Assembly (NCBI RefSeq): GCF_001511835.1
Contig: NZ_LN997848.1
Span: 3,686,001-3,750,000, forward strand
Reading direction: 5' to 3'
Length of the DNA stretch: 64,000 nucleotides
DNA from: Magnetospirillum sp. XM-1
Lineage (GTDB): Bacteria; Pseudomonadota; Alphaproteobacteria; Rhodospirillales; Magnetospirillaceae
This document shows positions 44,772 through 54,131 of this stretch, in pieces; the stretch's first letter is position 1; each line of letters opens with the position of its first letter. A model generated the notes under the pieces. That model did no database searches. It was not told where the DNA came from and saw only the letters and a program-made list of their open reading frames with translations. The position numbers and the translations under genes are program-made.

Positions 44772-46322
44772 ATGGAAGGGCCAGTTCTCATAGTCGACGA
44801 CGATGCCAATTTGCTGCTGTCGCTGCGTCGCCAATTTGTCGGTAAATTTAACCTAGCAACGGCCCAAGGCGGGCCGGAAGCCATTGAGTTGGTGCGAACA
44901 GCTCAAGATCGAAACGCGTCTTTTGCCGTCGTCGTCTGCGACATGCGGATGCCTGAAATGGATGGGCTTCAGACACTAGCCCATATTCACGAAATTTCGC
45001 CCCAAACCATCTTGTTGATGTTGACGGGAAATTCAGACCAGCAGACAACGATCAACGCCATCAACAGTGGCCATATTTTCAGGTTCTATAACAAGCCATG
45101 TCCAATTCCGATTCTCGAAAGCGGAATAAGCGAGGCCATCACAAAATTCAAAATGCTTCAAGCAGAACACGAGATTCTGGAAAAGACCCTGGCAGGTAGC
45201 ATCAAGGTTCTCATCGATCTCGTATCTTCTACTAATCCAGTCATATCAAGTCATGCAAGACGGATACGTGACTATGCCAGGAAGCTGACCTCTGATGGCC
45301 AGTTCCCCCGTCACTGGCAGTTGGAAATTGCAGCGTCCCTTGCATTGATCGGCCAGCTATCGCTCCCAGTCGAATTGGTTCAAAAGCGGCACGCTGGCCG
45401 ATCCATGAGCGTTGATGAACAATCAACGTTGGCCAGTGCCCCGGAAATAGCCAGCAACCTCATCACCAATATTCCGCGCTTGGGGAAGGTAGCCGAATCC
45501 ATTTACCTCCAGGATCGTGGATTTGACGGTAGCGGCTTCCCTGACGGCGGCCCTGTTGGAGCGGATATTCCTCGGGATGCACGGATCCTCAAGGTGCTTA
45601 AAGACCTCAGCGAGGCCGTCGATGAGATTGGCGCGCCCAACGAAAAATCTTTTGCCCTTCTAGAGGGCAAGAAGGCGCAATACGACCCCGATATCTTTGA
45701 TAAAATCCGTAAATGTCTTGAAGTGCCTCTGGCGGAGGGCCAAAACTCTTCCGATGACGATCGCAATCCGACTGCCGATGGCATAGACAGACCGGTAGAT
45801 GAAGGCTCCGGATCTTCCTTACCAATCAAAAATAAAGCTGCCCGCAATATATCCGGAATCAGCTCTTTTCCCACGACAGAGACCGGCCGCAAAGCCTCAT
45901 TATCTAGAAAGCGTCGGCGCCACCGCATAATCGCCGTCACTATTGCTTCTATTTTTCTTACCGCCATAGGAAGCATAGCAATCTTGTACGACAAGAGATC
46001 ATCACCGCCGCTCAACGAGGTCAGTGCATCCGAATTAATCTTGCAAATGCAAATGGCTGCGAAAGGTGATGTTGCTGCTGCGAGCAATGTTTACGGTGGA
46101 AAGTTGTTGGTCAAGGACGGCCATATCCAAGTAGATAGTATTCCGCGATCAGCCTGTATTCAGGTCAGTTGGAAGCTTATTAAGACCGGAATGCTTAGCA
46201 TCAACGGGCTGGTTGCCCAGCGAGTTACAGGCACTTCCATATCAAAGCAGTGCGACTCCCAGAACGCGAACATTTTAGCGTGGACTCCCTACCAGGCCAA
46301 CGAGAAAGCCGAGGAGGAATGA
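44772..46322 (+). CDS. response regulator with degenerate HD-GYP domain, membrane anchor and pilin-like tail
   Basis: 516 aa. Residues 1-125: receiver with Asp57 (VVCDMRMPEMDG) and Lys108. Residues 140-320: HD-GYP-like helices, but the HD dyad is replaced (SLALIGQL) and GYP reads GFP in RGFDGSGFPDGG, so phosphodiesterase activity is unlikely. After a Ser-rich linker comes KRRRHRIIAVTIASIFLTAIG, one membrane helix (about 386-406). The last 100 residues resemble the globular part of type IVb pilins, with Cys462 and Cys494 placed for the C-terminal disulfide (IPRSACIQV..INGL..KQCDSQNANILAW). Receiver and HD part are paralogous to the 49,079-50,236 protein. Confidence 0.8.
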   Translation: MEGPVLIVDDDANLLLSLRRQFVGKFNLATAQGGPEAIELVRTAQDRNASFAVVVCDMRMPEMDGLQTLAHIHEISPQTILLMLTGNSDQQTTINAINSGHIFRFYNKPCPIPILESGISEAITKFKMLQAEHEILEKTLAGSIKVLIDLVSSTNPVISSHARRIRDYARKLTSDGQFPRHWQLEIAASLALIGQLSLPVELVQKRHAGRSMSVDEQSTLASAPEIASNLITNIPRLGKVAESIYLQDRGFDGSGFPDGGPVGADIPRDARILKVLKDLSEAVDEIGAPNEKSFALLEGKKAQYDPDIFDKIRKCLEVPLAEGQNSSDDDRNPTADGIDRPVDEGSGSSLPIKNKAARNISGISSFPTTETGRKASLSRKRRRHRIIAVTIASIFLTAIGSIAILYDKRSSPPLNEVSASELILQMQMAAKGDVAAASNVYGGKLLVKDGHIQVDSIPRSACIQVSWKLIKTGMLSINGLVAQRVTGTSISKQCDSQNANILAWTPYQANEKAEEE

Positions 46323-46368
46323 GGACAAGCCCCCGTCTTTCAATCATTGATTTTCCAACGGTGGAAAT

Positions 46369-48231
46369 CTATGCCACCGGGAGCCGGATTGTGAATACGG
46401 CTCCTTCCTCCTTCGAATCTCCGACGATAATTTGGCCGCCGTGCTTAACGACAACTACGTCATAGCAAATTGCCAGCCCCTGACCTGTACCCTTTCCCAC
46501 GTCCTTGGTGGTGAAGAAAGGGTCAAAAATCCGGTCCTTGATGTCGTCCGGTACACCCGTACCACTGTCGGAAATGCGGACTTCGACAAAATCCCCGAGA
46601 CTAAGAGTTTCGACGGTAATTTTGCCTGGTTTAAGCCTTCCTGATTCATCGATGGCGTGGGCCGCATTGATGATGAGATTTAAAAACACCTGATTCATCT
46701 CGCCGGGATGACAATTAACTCTTGGCAGTTTAGGGTCAAGTCTGGTCTCTAGGTCTGCAATATGTTTCCACGTGTTCCGTGAAACCGTTACGGTATTTTC
46801 TAAGGCACGATTGAGATCGACCACTGATTTTTGGGTCGTTCCTGGGTGGGAAAACTCTTTCATGGACAATACGATTCTTGCAACCTGCGCCACTCCCTCC
46901 AACGACTGGGAAATTGCGGGGGGCAGCTCATTTATCAAAAAGTCTAGATTGGCCTGTTTAACGCGCTCAAAATACTCCAGGACAAGCGCATCCCGGCTGG
47001 AGTAACGCTCCAAATCACTGGCCACTTTCCGTGCCTCGTCCAGAAGGGGGAGAATGTTTTTGGAGGCGTCTTGAATGAAGCTGAGATTGTCGCCGATATA
47101 CTGGATCGGGGTGTTGATCTCGTGAGCAATACCTGCCGCCAATTGTCCGACACTGGCTAGGCGAGACGCCTGCAAAGCCTCACGCTGGGCTTCCTTGAGA
47201 GCGGCAGTCCGTTCCGTTACCAGATGCTCCAGCTCGGCATGCTGGTCGGCCCGGATACGTTCATATTGGCGTCGCTGGGTTAGATCGCCGACGGTTGCCA
47301 CCACCATCGTCAGACCATCCACCGCCACCCGACTGGCAGTAATCAAGGCGGGAAAGCGGCTCGCATCAAAACGAACAGCCTCGATCTCCACACCTCCCGC
47401 CCCCACTATGCCTTCGAACGGGACCAACTGATTTACATCAGACCCAATAGCTCTGCTGGCCGGAACACCGAAAATGCGTTCGGCGGCATTATTGAACGAT
47501 ACAATTCTGCCTTGATCATCCAGCGACAAGATAGCTTCCGCCGAATTGTCGATGACCGCTTCCAACCGCCGCTCGCTTTGCCGAAGCGCTGCTTCGCGAC
47601 TGCCGACGGCGTCACGCATGATCTGAAAGGCGCGAACCAACTTTCCGACCTCGTCGCCGGACGACATGGGTAAGGCGACATCGTAACTGCCTTCCGAAAG
47701 AAGGTGGCTGGCCTTGGCCAGCTTTTTCATCGGCCGGACTACCGAGTTGTTTTGAAGCCACACCACGGCCAAGGTTCCAAGCAACAAGATCAGCGCGACC
47801 ATAAGTTCAAGCTGCTGCAAAACGGCAAAGGCAGGGGCCACTAGGCTATTTTCCTCAAGATCGACCGTGAGCATTCCCAGTGACCGCCCCGCCCAATCCA
47901 GCGGAACGCTAAGCCGGGTCATCGCCTCACTCCGCTCTGGCCTACCCAGGGGATAGAGCTGCCTTCCCGCTGGGGTCGTCAGGGTTAATGACCTCCACCA
48001 GGGATGGTTTTGCCTAACTTCGGAGAGCGTCTCATAAATCTTGGCCAGATCGCTGGCTAGAAGGTCCGGAACGATGGCCAGACCGACCAGGGTCAACGCG
48101 CGCTTCTCTCCATTCACCCGTTCCACCACCAGAATCTGCTTCAATGAGGCGAAGGCAATGAAATGCATGACCGCAAGTACGCTGCCTGCGACGAGGAGCA
48201 GAGGAACGAGAAGCTTGACGCGAATGTTCAT
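46369..48231 (-). CDS. HAMP-PAS sensor histidine kinase
   Basis: 620 aa. Membrane helix near 8-28, periplasmic sensor about 30-140, second helix about 142-162, HAMP about 163-215 (VVRPMKKLAKASHLL), PAS about 225-330 (AILSLDDQGRIVSFNNAAERIFG), then HisKA (AAGIAHEINTPIQYIGDN) and HATPase (DSGTGVP, GTGQGLAI). Its ATG overlaps the stop of the PhnD-type gene by four bases, so the binding protein is the probable sensory partner of its periplasmic domain. Last gene of a five-gene operon. Confidence 0.92.
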   Translation of the reverse strand: MNIRVKLLVPLLLVAGSVLAVMHFIAFASLKQILVVERVNGEKRALTLVGLAIVPDLLASDLAKIYETLSEVRQNHPWWRSLTLTTPAGRQLYPLGRPERSEAMTRLSVPLDWAGRSLGMLTVDLEENSLVAPAFAVLQQLELMVALILLLGTLAVVWLQNNSVVRPMKKLAKASHLLSEGSYDVALPMSSGDEVGKLVRAFQIMRDAVGSREAALRQSERRLEAVIDNSAEAILSLDDQGRIVSFNNAAERIFGVPASRAIGSDVNQLVPFEGIVGAGGVEIEAVRFDASRFPALITASRVAVDGLTMVVATVGDLTQRRQYERIRADQHAELEHLVTERTAALKEAQREALQASRLASVGQLAAGIAHEINTPIQYIGDNLSFIQDASKNILPLLDEARKVASDLERYSSRDALVLEYFERVKQANLDFLINELPPAISQSLEGVAQVARIVLSMKEFSHPGTTQKSVVDLNRALENTVTVSRNTWKHIADLETRLDPKLPRVNCHPGEMNQVFLNLIINAAHAIDESGRLKPGKITVETLSLGDFVEVRISDSGTGVPDDIKDRIFDPFFTTKDVGKGTGQGLAICYDVVVVKHGGQIIVGDSKEEGAVFTIRLPVA

Positions 48232-49064
48232 TGGTCGACGTAAAACGCCTCCAGCCCAAGATGACGTAAGGTCTCATACTCCTGATCTCTGGCGGGCCCG
48301 ACCGACTTGATCGGGATATCGGCGAGAAGCCTCGCCCCGTGACGATCCCGTCCGAGTTCCAGCAATGCCTTCTGGATACGAAGGACGTCTGCGGGGGGAA
48401 CCCGCGGGTGAGCCGCCAGCGGATGCGGTGGAAAGCGTTCTGTTTCGTGAATGATGGTTAAGCCATCTCGGATTTCCGGCTTTAGCTGATCGAAGGTCGC
48501 ACGGATTCCCCCCGCCGCATCCGTCTGGCCCAGTAAGACGTTCAAATAGGCCGAATCATGGGACTTTACATAGACCTCGGAGATTTTGATATGGAACTTG
48601 CGGACGAATTCGGCGCGTGGGATCAATGAAGCTCCCATGGCATTGGGCGCAGGGAACGCAACTTTACGGCCATCCAGCATCGCCACATTGATCAGGCCAG
48701 TGCCTTTCGCCACAACAACGACACCATACAGATCGTTTTCCACATCGCGGACAATTGGCTGATATCCCTGGAGGCGATGGGCGACCACGTAATGATAGGG
48801 GTTCATATAGGCGAAGTCATAAGCCCCGGCATTGAGGGCTTTTTCAAAGGCAGGTATGGTCGGCTCCATCACTAGTTGAAAGTGAAACCCGGTCATGGGT
48901 TCAAGCCGTTCGATAATTGGACGCCAAATGGCCTCGATGCGCCGATGATCGAACTGAGGCACGATCGAGATACTGTATGTCGGAGTATCGCCTGCCCGAG
49001 CTTCCGAATACCAGGCCGTCACGGCGAACATCAAGATGGCAACTGCTTTGCGATAACCCGGCAT
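48228..49064 (-). CDS. PhnD-type periplasmic binding protein
   Basis: 278 aa with signal peptide (GYRKAVAILMFAVTAWYSEARAGD). Matches PhnD/phosphonate-binding proteins: SISIVPQFDHRRIEAIWRPII, PTIPAFEKALNAGAYDFAYMNPYHYVVA, VVVVAKGTGL, FPAPNAMGASLIPR, YVKSHDSAYLNVLLGQTDAAGGI. Known members bind phosphonate, phosphite or other oxyanions. No ABC permease or ATPase is nearby; instead it overlaps a sensor kinase gene, so it likely delivers ligand information rather than substrate. Confidence 0.88.
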   Translation of the reverse strand: MPGYRKAVAILMFAVTAWYSEARAGDTPTYSISIVPQFDHRRIEAIWRPIIERLEPMTGFHFQLVMEPTIPAFEKALNAGAYDFAYMNPYHYVVAHRLQGYQPIVRDVENDLYGVVVVAKGTGLINVAMLDGRKVAFPAPNAMGASLIPRAEFVRKFHIKISEVYVKSHDSAYLNVLLGQTDAAGGIRATFDQLKPEIRDGLTIIHETERFPPHPLAAHPRVPPADVLRIQKALLELGRDRHGARLLADIPIKSVGPARDQEYETLRHLGLEAFYVDQ

Positions 49065-49078
49065 AACCCTCTCCTGAC

Positions 49079-50236
49079 TTAGTTAGCCCTGGGCCTCGAG
49101 GCAAAGCGGCGCACCATGATGGGCTCCTTCAGCCGCGCCATCGCGTTGATGTTTTGCAGTCTCAGAAACAGCAGATCACTGATGGTTTCACCGGCGGCAA
49201 GTACCAGCCGTCCACTCTCGAGCGTCAGATCGCTTACCAAGACATCACCAGCGCAAATGCCAGTTGCGGGAACGGCAATGCGGATTTCAGCCCCGTCATC
49301 AGACTGACCGCTAGGGGTTAAAAGACAGGCCCCAACTGCGGCAAGAACAGCGAGATCATATCCGCCCTCTTTTTCGAGCGCGACAAGGGCCTCCTTGGAC
49401 GGATTAGCTCCAGCGATCCGATCCAAATTGAGCAGTACTTTGAGAATCCGCCCAGGCAGAGTGGCCAGGGAGCGTTGATCAAAATCACGTTCTCCCCCGG
49501 CGGAGAATTGTACGGCCCGAGCGACTGGCTCAAGGCGGGGAATCTTCTTGATAAGGGCCGCTCCGACGGCAGGAACGCGGTGGATCATCTCTTGTTCCAT
49601 CGCAGAAAGATGCTGGCCTGAATGATGCCGAGCAAGCACTTCGGGAGGAACTGCAATGGCTCCCAGTTGAGACAACTCCGCCGCCATTTCTACAACCCAC
49701 GCATCACCAAGCTTCATATGACGCGCAATCTCTACGGCCCAGCCATGAATACGTCGGGAACGGTGAAAAATGTCCGGGGCCACCAGCGACAGAACATCAC
49801 TCAGCAAGGAAATGCTACCGGTCAAAGTTCCTTCCAGAAGAGCTCGCTCCCCCTGAATTAACTGGTGCTGGCGGATAGCCGCTTCGATGCCGTCGATAAG
49901 CGTCGCCATGGGGCAAGGCTTGTTAAAGAAACGAAAAATCTTCCCGTCATTGATGGCATTGATAGCTGTCTTCTGGTCCGCATTGCCGGTCAGCATGATC
50001 CTAACTGTATCTGGCGATATCTCCTGAAGCCGACGGAGGACCTCTACACCGTCCATGCCGGGCATGCGCATGTCGCAAACGGCGACCGCAAAAGGTCCAG
50101 AACTCTGGGCAAGACCCAATGCCTCAATACCGCCCTCAGCAGTCATCAGATCAAACTTTTGCCCGAGGTGACGGCGCAGGCCTGCCAGCAGGTTGACGTC
50201 ATCATCGACGATCAAAATCTTTTCGGCCAGCCTCAT
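49079..50236 (-). CDS. response regulator with HD-type output domain
   Basis: 385 aa. Receiver 1-120 with Asp55 (VAVCDMRMPGMDG), Lys106 and the FRFFNKPCP tail. Residues 135-290 are HD-GYP-like helices lacking both the HD dyad and the GYP loop, so probably non-catalytic. The last 60 residues (LVSDLTLESGRLVLAAG) resemble the C-terminal module found in some HD-GYP regulators. Start overlaps the HDOD gene stop by four bases. Cognate kinase is likely one of the two in the same operon. Confidence 0.88.
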   Translation of the reverse strand: MRLAEKILIVDDDVNLLAGLRRHLGQKFDLMTAEGGIEALGLAQSSGPFAVAVCDMRMPGMDGVEVLRRLQEISPDTVRIMLTGNADQKTAINAINDGKIFRFFNKPCPMATLIDGIEAAIRQHQLIQGERALLEGTLTGSISLLSDVLSLVAPDIFHRSRRIHGWAVEIARHMKLGDAWVVEMAAELSQLGAIAVPPEVLARHHSGQHLSAMEQEMIHRVPAVGAALIKKIPRLEPVARAVQFSAGGERDFDQRSLATLPGRILKVLLNLDRIAGANPSKEALVALEKEGGYDLAVLAAVGACLLTPSGQSDDGAEIRIAVPATGICAGDVLVSDLTLESGRLVLAAGETISDLLFLRLQNINAMARLKEPIMVRRFASRPRAN

Positions 50237-51479: not shown

Positions 51480-54131
51480 TTACGATAAACTAGCGTCTTC
51501 AGACGAGGCTGCGGGTATTTCAATAGGCAGGCGGATCCGGAAGCACGCTCCTGACCCGGGTTCGGACTCTGCGGTGATCTGGCCCCCATGGCGATGAATG
51601 ATTGCTTTGGTAATCGCCAGTCCTTGCCCCGTTCCCTGGCCAGGAGCTTTCGTGGTGAAAAACAGCTCAAAGATCTGCTTGAGATTTTCCGGCTCGATCC
51701 CGACGCCAGAATCCCTGACGGTTAATTCGACGCCATCACCCAAACTCTGTGTCTTCACTTTGATCCGGCCTAGAGATGAAGAGCCCAGTTCCGCTATGGC
51801 ATGCGTGGCGTTAACCAGCAGATTAACGAGCACTTGGTTGATCTCGCCTTCGATAGCAGAAATTTTCGGCAGGTCAGGGTCTAAATCAAATTCCAACTCT
51901 GCCACATATTTCCATTGATTCCGGGTGACAGTGGCAACCACGTCAATCAGGTGATTGAGATCGATGGGATGCGGCAGTTTGGAACTGGGATATGAGAATT
52001 CCTTGATTGCCTGAACAATCTTGGCGATGCGAAGTGTCCCGTCCTGGGCCTGTGCCGCGGCAGCGGGCAACTCGGCCTTGAGAAAGTCCAGGTCAACGCC
52101 GTCTAGATTTTTTGTCACGGTGACCAAATCGGCTTCCGTTGATTTTGCAGCCTTCACGCTCTCGGCCAGATCAAGGAGGCTTGAAATTCCGTCACTCATA
52201 AAGGCGATATTGTCACTGACATATTGGGTCGGCGTGTTGATCTCGTGGGCAATGCCGCCGGCAAGGGTGCCAAGGGCTTCCATTCTGTCCGACTCTGCAA
52301 TCCGCTCGATCATGGCCGCTCGCTCTTGCTCGGCGATAATCCGGTCGGTGATGTCCTGAAGCGTCATGACGACCATCGCGGGGGCGGCGGAGTCGCTGCT
52401 GACCTCGCCCAGAACGTGGAGTGTCCGCACCCCAATCCGCAATTCGAGTTCAAAGCACGATCCCGACCTTCTCGAAAGCAGGTCCATAAGCCTGACCCTG
52501 TCGTCGGATGCGACATTGAAAAACACATCCTCCTCCGACCCAGACTTCCGGGCGGGATCAATCCCGAGCATGTCCTGGGTGCCCTCGCCAAGCAAATAAA
52601 CGCCAGTGATCAGATTCAACTCGATGAATCCAAGCCTTGCGATGCGGTGTGCCTCGCTTAGTTGCTGCTTCGACCTAGCGATTTCCCTGACCAGCTGGGC
52701 CGAGTTGTTTGCCTTCTTAGTCAGACCGAATAGCCGCCACAACAACCAGACCGAACCGACCGACAACAGCAAAAATGCCGAGACGATAACAACGGCTTTA
52801 GTGACATCTGAGCGCCATTGGGCAAGGTAATCTTCTGTTCCCATCCCAACGACGAGATGGAACGGTGCCGCCGACAGGCGGCGATAGGCGTTGAGCCGTT
52901 CGACCCCGTCGCCGGTTCGCTGTGTATGAAAAGACCTAGCCTGATCGCTCGAGGCGATGGCCTGCGCCAATTCGTCAGAAAAAACCTTGGTGCCGATCTG
53001 CTGGGATGGAGACGAGCTGGCCGGATACCGGGTGATCATGCCTGTATCGCCGTCGCGTAACAGAGCGACACCATTTGCCCCAAGTCTCGCCGCTGACAGC
53101 AGGCTATTGAAGTAATCAATATTAACTGTCGCGGATATCACGCCAGCGAAACTACCGTCTTGGCTGTTGTAACGCCGTGACAGCGAGATACCCCATTCAT
53201 GGCCGATACGCGTCAATATGGGATTGCTGACAAAAAGTCCGGAACGGCTATTCTCGCGGTGCACAATGAAGTGGTCGCGATCAGAAATGGATGTTGATTC
53301 AGAGGGTAAGGTGCCGGAGCCATACAAGATGGTGCCGTGCTCATCAGTTACGCGAAAATTGGCCAAACCCGAAAGCCAGGACTTTCGCTTGTCCAGAAAC
53401 ATTTTGGCTTCCCGGTCCTCGATGCGCCCCTTTACTCGAAGCTCGTGCTCCAGCCAGTCCTCGATCTCGTGGAGGGTCAGGTCAATTTTACTGACTGATT
53501 CCGAAATATTGTGATCGAGCAGGAGAGCCGTACTTTCCACCGTGGCGCGGATCTCTCTTTCCTGAAGATTTCTCGTGGCGTTCAAGCCATAGGAGAGCAG
53601 CCCAACAACGGTGATGTCGACCGCCATCGTAATCAAGATCAGAGCAGCCATTACCGACCGGGACAACGTTACACTGGCGGCAATACGCTGTCGCCAGCTT
53701 GGAGACGATTTCGCAATCTCGCCCCCCCCCTCTTTTCTCGCGATAAAGCGGGCGTAGTCTTTATCGCTGTTCTCGATATGAGAGCACAGCCAATTGCTGA
53801 TGAAATCGAGCTCGCCGATCTCCAATTCATGCTTGTCATTGCTGTCGGCACTGGCAACTAGGGCGTCCAATTCTAACAGTAGCTTTTGATGTTCGAGAAC
53901 ATGCTCGCCGAACCGCGGATACCCCCATTCCTCCAACAGTGATTCCTCGTGGCGGAGGTGATCTCGCATCGTCTCGGACACACGATGAATTGCATCAGCG
54001 GTGGCTTGCTTGTCACTGCCCCGTTCCGTAGCCGCCCAGAGATCATTAAGAACGCCAAACAACGCCTGGTGTTCGGCATCAATTTCTGGAATCTGAACGC
54101 TGTATTGGGGCGCCCAGTGGAGAAGAGCCAT
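51480..54131 (-). CDS. bacteriohemerythrin-Cache-PAS sensor histidine kinase
   Basis: 883 aa. Residues 1-130 are a complete bacteriohemerythrin: all seven di-iron ligands are present (His21, His58, Glu62, His77, His81, His118, Asp123), so it should bind oxygen or sense iron/redox in the cytoplasm. Membrane helices near 158-180 and 460-480 enclose a periplasmic double-Cache-like domain (DRDHFIVHRENSRSGLFVS, ISATVNIDYFNSLLSA). Then a PAS-like domain, HisKA (GGIAHEINTPTQYVSDN) and HATPase (DSGVGI, GTGQGLAI). First gene of the five-gene operon. Two inputs, cytoplasmic di-iron and periplasmic ligand, feed one kinase. Confidence 0.93.
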   Translation of the reverse strand: MALLHWAPQYSVQIPEIDAEHQALFGVLNDLWAATERGSDKQATADAIHRVSETMRDHLRHEESLLEEWGYPRFGEHVLEHQKLLLELDALVASADSNDKHELEIGELDFISNWLCSHIENSDKDYARFIARKEGGGEIAKSSPSWRQRIAASVTLSRSVMAALILITMAVDITVVGLLSYGLNATRNLQEREIRATVESTALLLDHNISESVSKIDLTLHEIEDWLEHELRVKGRIEDREAKMFLDKRKSWLSGLANFRVTDEHGTILYGSGTLPSESTSISDRDHFIVHRENSRSGLFVSNPILTRIGHEWGISLSRRYNSQDGSFAGVISATVNIDYFNSLLSAARLGANGVALLRDGDTGMITRYPASSSPSQQIGTKVFSDELAQAIASSDQARSFHTQRTGDGVERLNAYRRLSAAPFHLVVGMGTEDYLAQWRSDVTKAVVIVSAFLLLSVGSVWLLWRLFGLTKKANNSAQLVREIARSKQQLSEAHRIARLGFIELNLITGVYLLGEGTQDMLGIDPARKSGSEEDVFFNVASDDRVRLMDLLSRRSGSCFELELRIGVRTLHVLGEVSSDSAAPAMVVMTLQDITDRIIAEQERAAMIERIAESDRMEALGTLAGGIAHEINTPTQYVSDNIAFMSDGISSLLDLAESVKAAKSTEADLVTVTKNLDGVDLDFLKAELPAAAAQAQDGTLRIAKIVQAIKEFSYPSSKLPHPIDLNHLIDVVATVTRNQWKYVAELEFDLDPDLPKISAIEGEINQVLVNLLVNATHAIAELGSSSLGRIKVKTQSLGDGVELTVRDSGVGIEPENLKQIFELFFTTKAPGQGTGQGLAITKAIIHRHGGQITAESEPGSGACFRIRLPIEIPAASSEDASLS

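Follow-up and report, generated by a model that had tools for sequence, protein, structure and literature searches.

Why does a cytoplasmic response regulator carry a pilin-like domain on the other side of the membrane, and is the assembly of pili under its control? The question is raised by a gene in a stretch of 64,000 nucleotides from Magnetospirillum sp. XM-1 (GCF_001511835.1, contig NZ_LN997848.1, positions 3,686,001 to 3,750,000; hereafter the window), whose product of 516 residues (44772..46322, + strand) is composed of a receiver, a degenerate HD domain, a linker, a single membrane helix, and a C-terminal tail resembling type IVb pilins, an order shared by the orthologues of four other genomes. 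A sequence-only reading of the window had described this open reading frame (ORF) with its one helix exactly as it is found here and had proposed a phosphorylation switch acting through the tail on pilus or filament assembly; its structural part is borne out, while the switch finds little support, given the lack of a prepilin signal and pilus markers located more than 2 Mb away. With about even confidence, the protein is interpreted here as a response regulator tethered to the membrane by a periplasmic docking or anchoring tail of pilin fold on a flexible leash, and not as a switch for pilus assembly. The domain order, the receiver residues, the loss of the HD motif, the fold and cysteines of the tail, the missing prepilin signal, the weak conservation of the linker, and the presence of the tail on two other cytoplasmic parts are established at the level of sequence and structure prediction.

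The receiver (Response_reg, PF00072, E 9.8e-17) spans residues 5-111 (44784..45104, + strand) and contains the phospho-acceptor D57 that, together with the remaining receiver residues (acidic pocket, Asp, Thr, Lys), is kept in all five receiver versions, the window protein counted; judged by these residues, the motif is intact and the protein is a response regulator. It is followed by an HD_5 domain (PF13487, E 3e-33; residues 145-308, 45204..45695, + strand) in which the canonical HD-GYP motifs, HDxGK and GYP, are lost. In particular, this signature of cyclic di-GMP phosphodiesterases, including the HDxGK metal site, is absent from the window protein and its four orthologues, where ASLALIGQ, SSLALIGQ, or ASLALVGQ stands at the position of the HD motif and GFP at that of GYP, in agreement with the dead HD-GYP domain recognised earlier. 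The succession of receiver and HD_5 is that of the RpfG and NosR types, RpfG being a receiver-HD-GYP regulator; the window protein scores 189.3 bits against the NosR family NF053512, below the curated cut-off of 400, and differs from the NosR type by the addition of linker, membrane helix, and tail. The HD-GYP domain of B. pseudomallei NosR is likewise described as degenerate in a passage of PMC12570481.

The tail domain (residues 418-506, 46023..46289, + strand), periplasmic by inferred topology, belongs to a family with 84 places summed over the 55 genomes of Magnetospirillum's bacterial family; 55 distinct ORFs, a subset of these places, were studied, and two of them, a contig-end fragment (L069) and a broken copy in L009, were excluded from the resulting 53-row alignment. 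For each of two AlphaFold models, started from different family members, the top structural match is a type IVb pilin, and in both comparisons the globular domain of the tail is predicted to have the type IVb pilin fold, as had been supposed from the sequence. The cysteine pair singled out at the same time, Cys462 (46155..46157, + strand) and Cys494 (46251..46253, + strand), is kept by the homologues: neither residue varies in any of the 53 aligned tails, both align with the cysteines of PilS and may form a disulfide, and exactly two cysteines lie C-terminal to the membrane helix in each of the 55 ORFs. The match to PilS (PF08805) at residues 428-505 is below threshold, with 17.0 bits (E 0.0061) for the whole protein and 20.7 bits (E 0.00046) for the tail alone, the gathering cut-off being 22; the real PilS alignment scores 47.6, compared to at most 16.9 (E 0.064) for 40 column-shuffled decoys. 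A chance resemblance to pilins was considered and rejected, since fold, profile, and cysteines are concordant.

Other search results weigh against this assignment. A search of PDB sequences using A3, the larger profile, places PilS (E 0.0098) below OR280 (4hhu, E 0.0032), a de novo protein, and the tail alone as a single-sequence query reaches PilS at a non-significant E of 0.33, behind a kinase domain (0.11). Only 8 of the 53 members match PilS at E <= 0.01 (best 6.7e-5), so that the Pfam evidence by itself is weak; of two proteins of the same genome that bear the tail without a receiver, P0002 (161 residues) has no Pfam match at all and P0003 (298 residues, with a helical N-terminal domain) matches only families other than PilS (Ntox28, Asparaginase_C), below threshold. 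The OR280 match is taken as fortuitous, being made of two weak half-length repeats with no stretch significant on its own.

Type 4 pilins are defined by class III signal peptides (PMC10191384, PMC8179133, in the sections dealing with them), and the tails were scanned around the membrane helix with a strict motif (Gly/Ala-x4-Glu) and with a lax one not requiring Glu5. The window protein is negative near its helix in both scans. The strict motif occurs in one of the 55 tail ORFs, within an acidic stretch upstream of the helix, compared to 14 of 18 PilS controls; the four controls missed are an ORF without leader (L107), one starting at a contig end (L115), one with Asp for Glu (L128), and a plain lack (L110). 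The lax motif is found in 18/55 tails and 15/18 controls and, among the receiver versions, in G049, while the window protein, G040, P. kuznetsovii, and G004 are negative. The cytoplasmic part of the receiver and helical-domain versions is, moreover, far longer than the usual pilin leader. In 51 of 53 aligned tails, Pro or Gly is found in the segment that joins the membrane helix to the next helix, and this segment is modelled at low confidence (residues 27-30 of the predicted structure, predicted local distance difference test below 50); as a consequence, alpha1, a continuous stick in pilins, appears to be broken.

The only hydrophobic helix of the window protein, at about residues 386-406 (45927..45989, + strand), is separated by the basic stretch SRKRRRHR from a low-complexity cytoplasmic linker rich in Pro, Ser, Asp, and Lys (residues 320-383, 45729..45920, + strand). 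The conservation along the protein is uneven: in the two distant orthologues, G049 and G004, the identity is respectively 64% and 61% in the receiver, 61% and 59% in the HD domain, and 55% and 50% in the tail, with 9% and 11% in the linker and 30% and 42% in the membrane helix. The ortholog of P. kuznetsovii has 93% (receiver), 82% (HD), 83% (tail), 40% (linker), and 33% (helix), and that of G040 has 100%, 97%, 93%, 93%, and 81% in the same order. The tail thus seems to be retained by selection to almost the same degree as the signalling domains, with the leash free to drift, a pattern more in keeping with tethering or recruitment than with mechanical signalling across the membrane; since the linker is barely conserved in the distant orthologues, a conformational signal travelling through its approximately 65 residues is unlikely.

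The tail is not confined to this architecture. A three-row profile detects it in 46 of the 55 genomes of the family, and the 53-row profile in 71 of the 297 genomes of the order, including the same 46, with at most 13 candidates scored per genome. In a class-wide draw, the 53-row profile gives 4 of 385 genomes, two of which are weak matches (E 2.6e-4 and 3.3e-4) outside the order, one in G310 and the other in G348. The match in G310 is a pilin (PilS 42.4 bits) whose gene has as neighbours another PilS-like gene (21.1 bits, slightly under the cut-off) and one for a two-domain T2SSF protein, and judging from these genes the stretch L093:767-3147 is a type IVb pilus locus. The N-terminal set-ups of the 55 ORFs, classified by profiles, are three: receiver-HD in 5, a helical domain of about 95 residues in 21, and neither of them in 29. 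The last are mostly 159-231 codons long, one being the broken L009 copy; the longer ones, whose start codons are provisional, are in L059 (268 codons), L041 (335), L009 (424), L054 (553), and L055 (564). With a receiver in only one of these three set-ups, the pilin-like domain cannot be regarded as specific to phospho-signalling.

The order of receiver, HD domain, membrane helix, and tail occurs in 5 of the 55 family genomes, namely the window genome, G040, G037 (P. kuznetsovii, with an identical ORF in L045 and L052), G049, and G004, and the search for further proteins of this kind suggested by the sequence-only reading has therefore yielded four additional genomes. In a phylogenetic tree the tails of the receiver versions form one group with a support of 99 in the Shimodaira-Hasegawa-like approximate likelihood ratio test, and the fusion most likely arose once. 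The tree labels of the other two classes come from a rough pattern that gives 13 helical versions against 21 by profile, leaving the receiver group unchanged, and L056 and others form long branches that make the deeper branching order unsure. Order-wide, the other frames of at least 500 residues correspond to P0003, whose frame as counted runs across a stop, and to two receiver-less proteins behind long open frames (G024, G028).

Some members of these classes have further features. The helical N-terminal domain (L011:6235-7131 and 20 more ORFs) matches no Pfam family over the cut-off in the one member scanned. The short versions of L023, L026, L030-L032, and others have a His/Pro-rich cytoplasmic N-terminus that could bind metal. 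Another N-terminal pilin fusion is the 345-residue ORF L119:1426-2460 (G327), in which an apparent multi-helix membrane protein precedes a PilS-like domain (36.3 bits).

The tail and the pilus machinery do not always occur together. Among the 55 family genomes, the platform protein T2SSF is present in 49 and the prepilin peptidase Peptidase_A24 in 46; both are missing in 5 of the 46 tail-bearing genomes (G011, G024, G028, G032, G042) and A24 alone in three others (G002, G012, G034). In particular, the pilus ATPase T2SSE, T2SSF, A24, and Flp were all not found in the tail-bearing G024 and G032, both 99% complete, although misses in draft genomes are no proof of absence; G042 and G028 have respectively two and one T2SSE matches of ambiguous kind and no Flp. 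G011 was discarded as a pilus-less example due to its Flp and T2SSE matches and to an assembly 80% complete. Conversely, T2SSF and A24 occur together in eight of the nine genomes that have no tail; the remaining one is 0.9 Mb in size. In the window genome, a single Tad locus near 1.33 Mb encodes Flp, RcpC/CpaB, a secretin, CpaD, an AAA/MinD-type ATPase, T2SSE, and two T2SSF proteins, with A24 in the same stretch, and holds the only T2SSE, T2SSF, A24, and Flp matches of the genome; the gene of the window protein is at 3.73 Mb, about 2.4 Mb away. No canonical PilS over the cut-off was detected in this genome, and no pilus gene is present among the 10 neighbours scanned.

The genes adjoining the receiver version include candidate partners. 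The convergent neighbour is a HAMP-PAS histidine kinase (46369..48231, - strand), followed by a phosphonate-type periplasmic binding protein (48228..49064, - strand; PF12974, E 1.3e-59), a candidate sensor partner, and by a tail-less paralogue with receiver and HD_5 (49079..50236, - strand) that is about 42% identical over approximately the first 330 residues; a receiver-HDOD protein and a second kinase are also encoded on the opposite strand. This whole set is kept in three of the five receiver-version genomes, the window genome counted. The receiver version of G049 is preceded by a gene of the same orientation that terminates 12 bases short of it and shares 59% identity with the second kinase over 271 residues, while in G004 no kinase-like match was found, by eye and by BLAST, in the 8.6 kb covered; the binding protein was not found in the stretches around the genes of G049 and G004. 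A kinase is thus the likely phospho-donor, with the HAMP-PAS kinase as a candidate. The neighbourhood of the short version is conserved only among close relatives and gives no functional hint. Part of the locus is repeated elsewhere: window 45281-48081 is 100% identical over 2801 bases to L009:3915-6715 (G000:C1, approximately 2306.9-2309.7 kb), and another 711 bases (window 48695-49405) are 99.9% identical in the duplicated locus, near ORFs that by eye are transposase-like; the second copy, near-identical and without the receiver part, points to a recent partial duplication. Farther along, window 51480-54131 encodes a histidine kinase with a hemerythrin domain ahead of a dCache-type sensor region.

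Three other explanations can be set against tethering. Signals could run inwards, with the periplasmic domain sensing the redox state of its cysteines, a ligand, or the phosphonate-type binding protein and changing the output of the receiver-HD part. The inferred topology, the invariance of the cysteine pair, and the kinase and binding protein adjoining the gene in 3/5 loci are what such a sensor would have; it is nevertheless judged unlikely, since the linker that should convey the signal is barely conserved in distant orthologues, the same tail is borne by proteins without a recognised signalling domain, and the binding-protein neighbour is not seen around the other two genes.

The reverse direction, in which phosphorylation would govern the assembly of pili or other filaments through the tail, for instance as a decoy or a cap for Tad, appears decidedly improbable. 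It draws on the type IVb pilin fold and on the single Tad locus of the host genome; it is also in its favour, and a point against the interpretation preferred here, that T2SSF and A24 are present in all five receiver-version genomes, so that this version may have a link to Tad. Nevertheless, tails exist where none of the four markers was found (G024, G032) and are absent from eight genomes having T2SSF and A24, the machinery of the window genome is distant from the gene, and the fold is PilS-type in a genome lacking a canonical PilS over the cut-off; together with the poorly conserved linker, this speaks against inside-out control as the sequence-only reading had conceived it. Least credible, and only faintly so, is the view that the protein is a genuine minor pilin whose unusually long leader is removed by the prepilin peptidase, the receiver part being released and the pilin built into a filament. 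Its membrane topology would be that of an uncut prepilin and Glu5 is frequent yet not obligatory (both in the relevant portion of PMC10191384), the tail has a pilin fold, and the lax signal is found in a third of the tails (18/55), one receiver version (G049) included; against it stand the negative scans of the window protein, the single strict motif among 55 tails compared to 14/18 controls, and the apparent break of the alpha1 stick.

The comparison with known systems delimits the tethered regulator further. The tail shares the fold and the C-terminal cysteine pair with the PilS-family type IVb pilins (PF08805; S. Typhi PilS 3fhu/1q5f, TcpA, CofA), from which the window protein differs in having no class III signal peptide and no pilus gene among its scanned neighbours, and the tail family in having approximately 30-390 cytoplasmic residues N-terminal to the helix and a Pro/Gly-containing segment that sets the helix apart from the next one. 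In modular pilins such as S. sanguinis PilB, a pilin module is likewise fused to an unrelated functional module; however, according to the pertinent sections of PMC8179133, PilB keeps its N-terminal signal peptide and displays the extra C-terminal module on the pilus, whereas the extra modules of the tail family are N-terminal and cytoplasmic. The archaeal MetOD3 response regulators are also fixed in the membrane through their output part (PMC5847659), with no resemblance to pilins mentioned in the part of that paper describing them, unlike the tail of the window protein. No description of a receiver-TM-pilin protein, TM being the transmembrane helix, was found in the open-access papers searched, subscription papers being mostly outside the search.

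In the favoured explanation, the tail would dock or anchor the protein in the envelope by binding a partner in the periplasm or the membrane, and would keep the cytoplasmic receiver-HD adaptor, on its flexible leash, near its kinase or its target. Phosphorylation would act in the ordinary fashion, through a change in the cytoplasmic binding partners of the degenerate HD domain, without moving the tail. The tail probably derives from a type IVb pilin that has lost the processing site and polymerisation, and each of the three N-terminal set-ups would amount to a different load on one anchor. At a little short of even confidence, this can be extended to the whole family: the pilin fold may have been domesticated as a general membrane-anchor or receptor domain, independent of filaments and loaded with at least three cytoplasmic modules, one of which is a two-component receiver.

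As filament subunits, pilins depend on a peptidase and a motor as well as on a signal peptide; in the tail family the pilin fold appears as a membrane domain, found also in genomes without detected machinery and, in one version, fused to a phospho-receiver. If the interpretation is true, the pilin fold can leave the world of filaments and provides a new means of fixing response regulators in the membrane; on the family-wide reading, a "pilin without a pilus" would serve this order as the periplasmic docking part of its envelope signalling. The tail would, in turn, constitute a concrete and testable protein family, with three versions in one cell, in genetically tractable magnetotactic bacteria.
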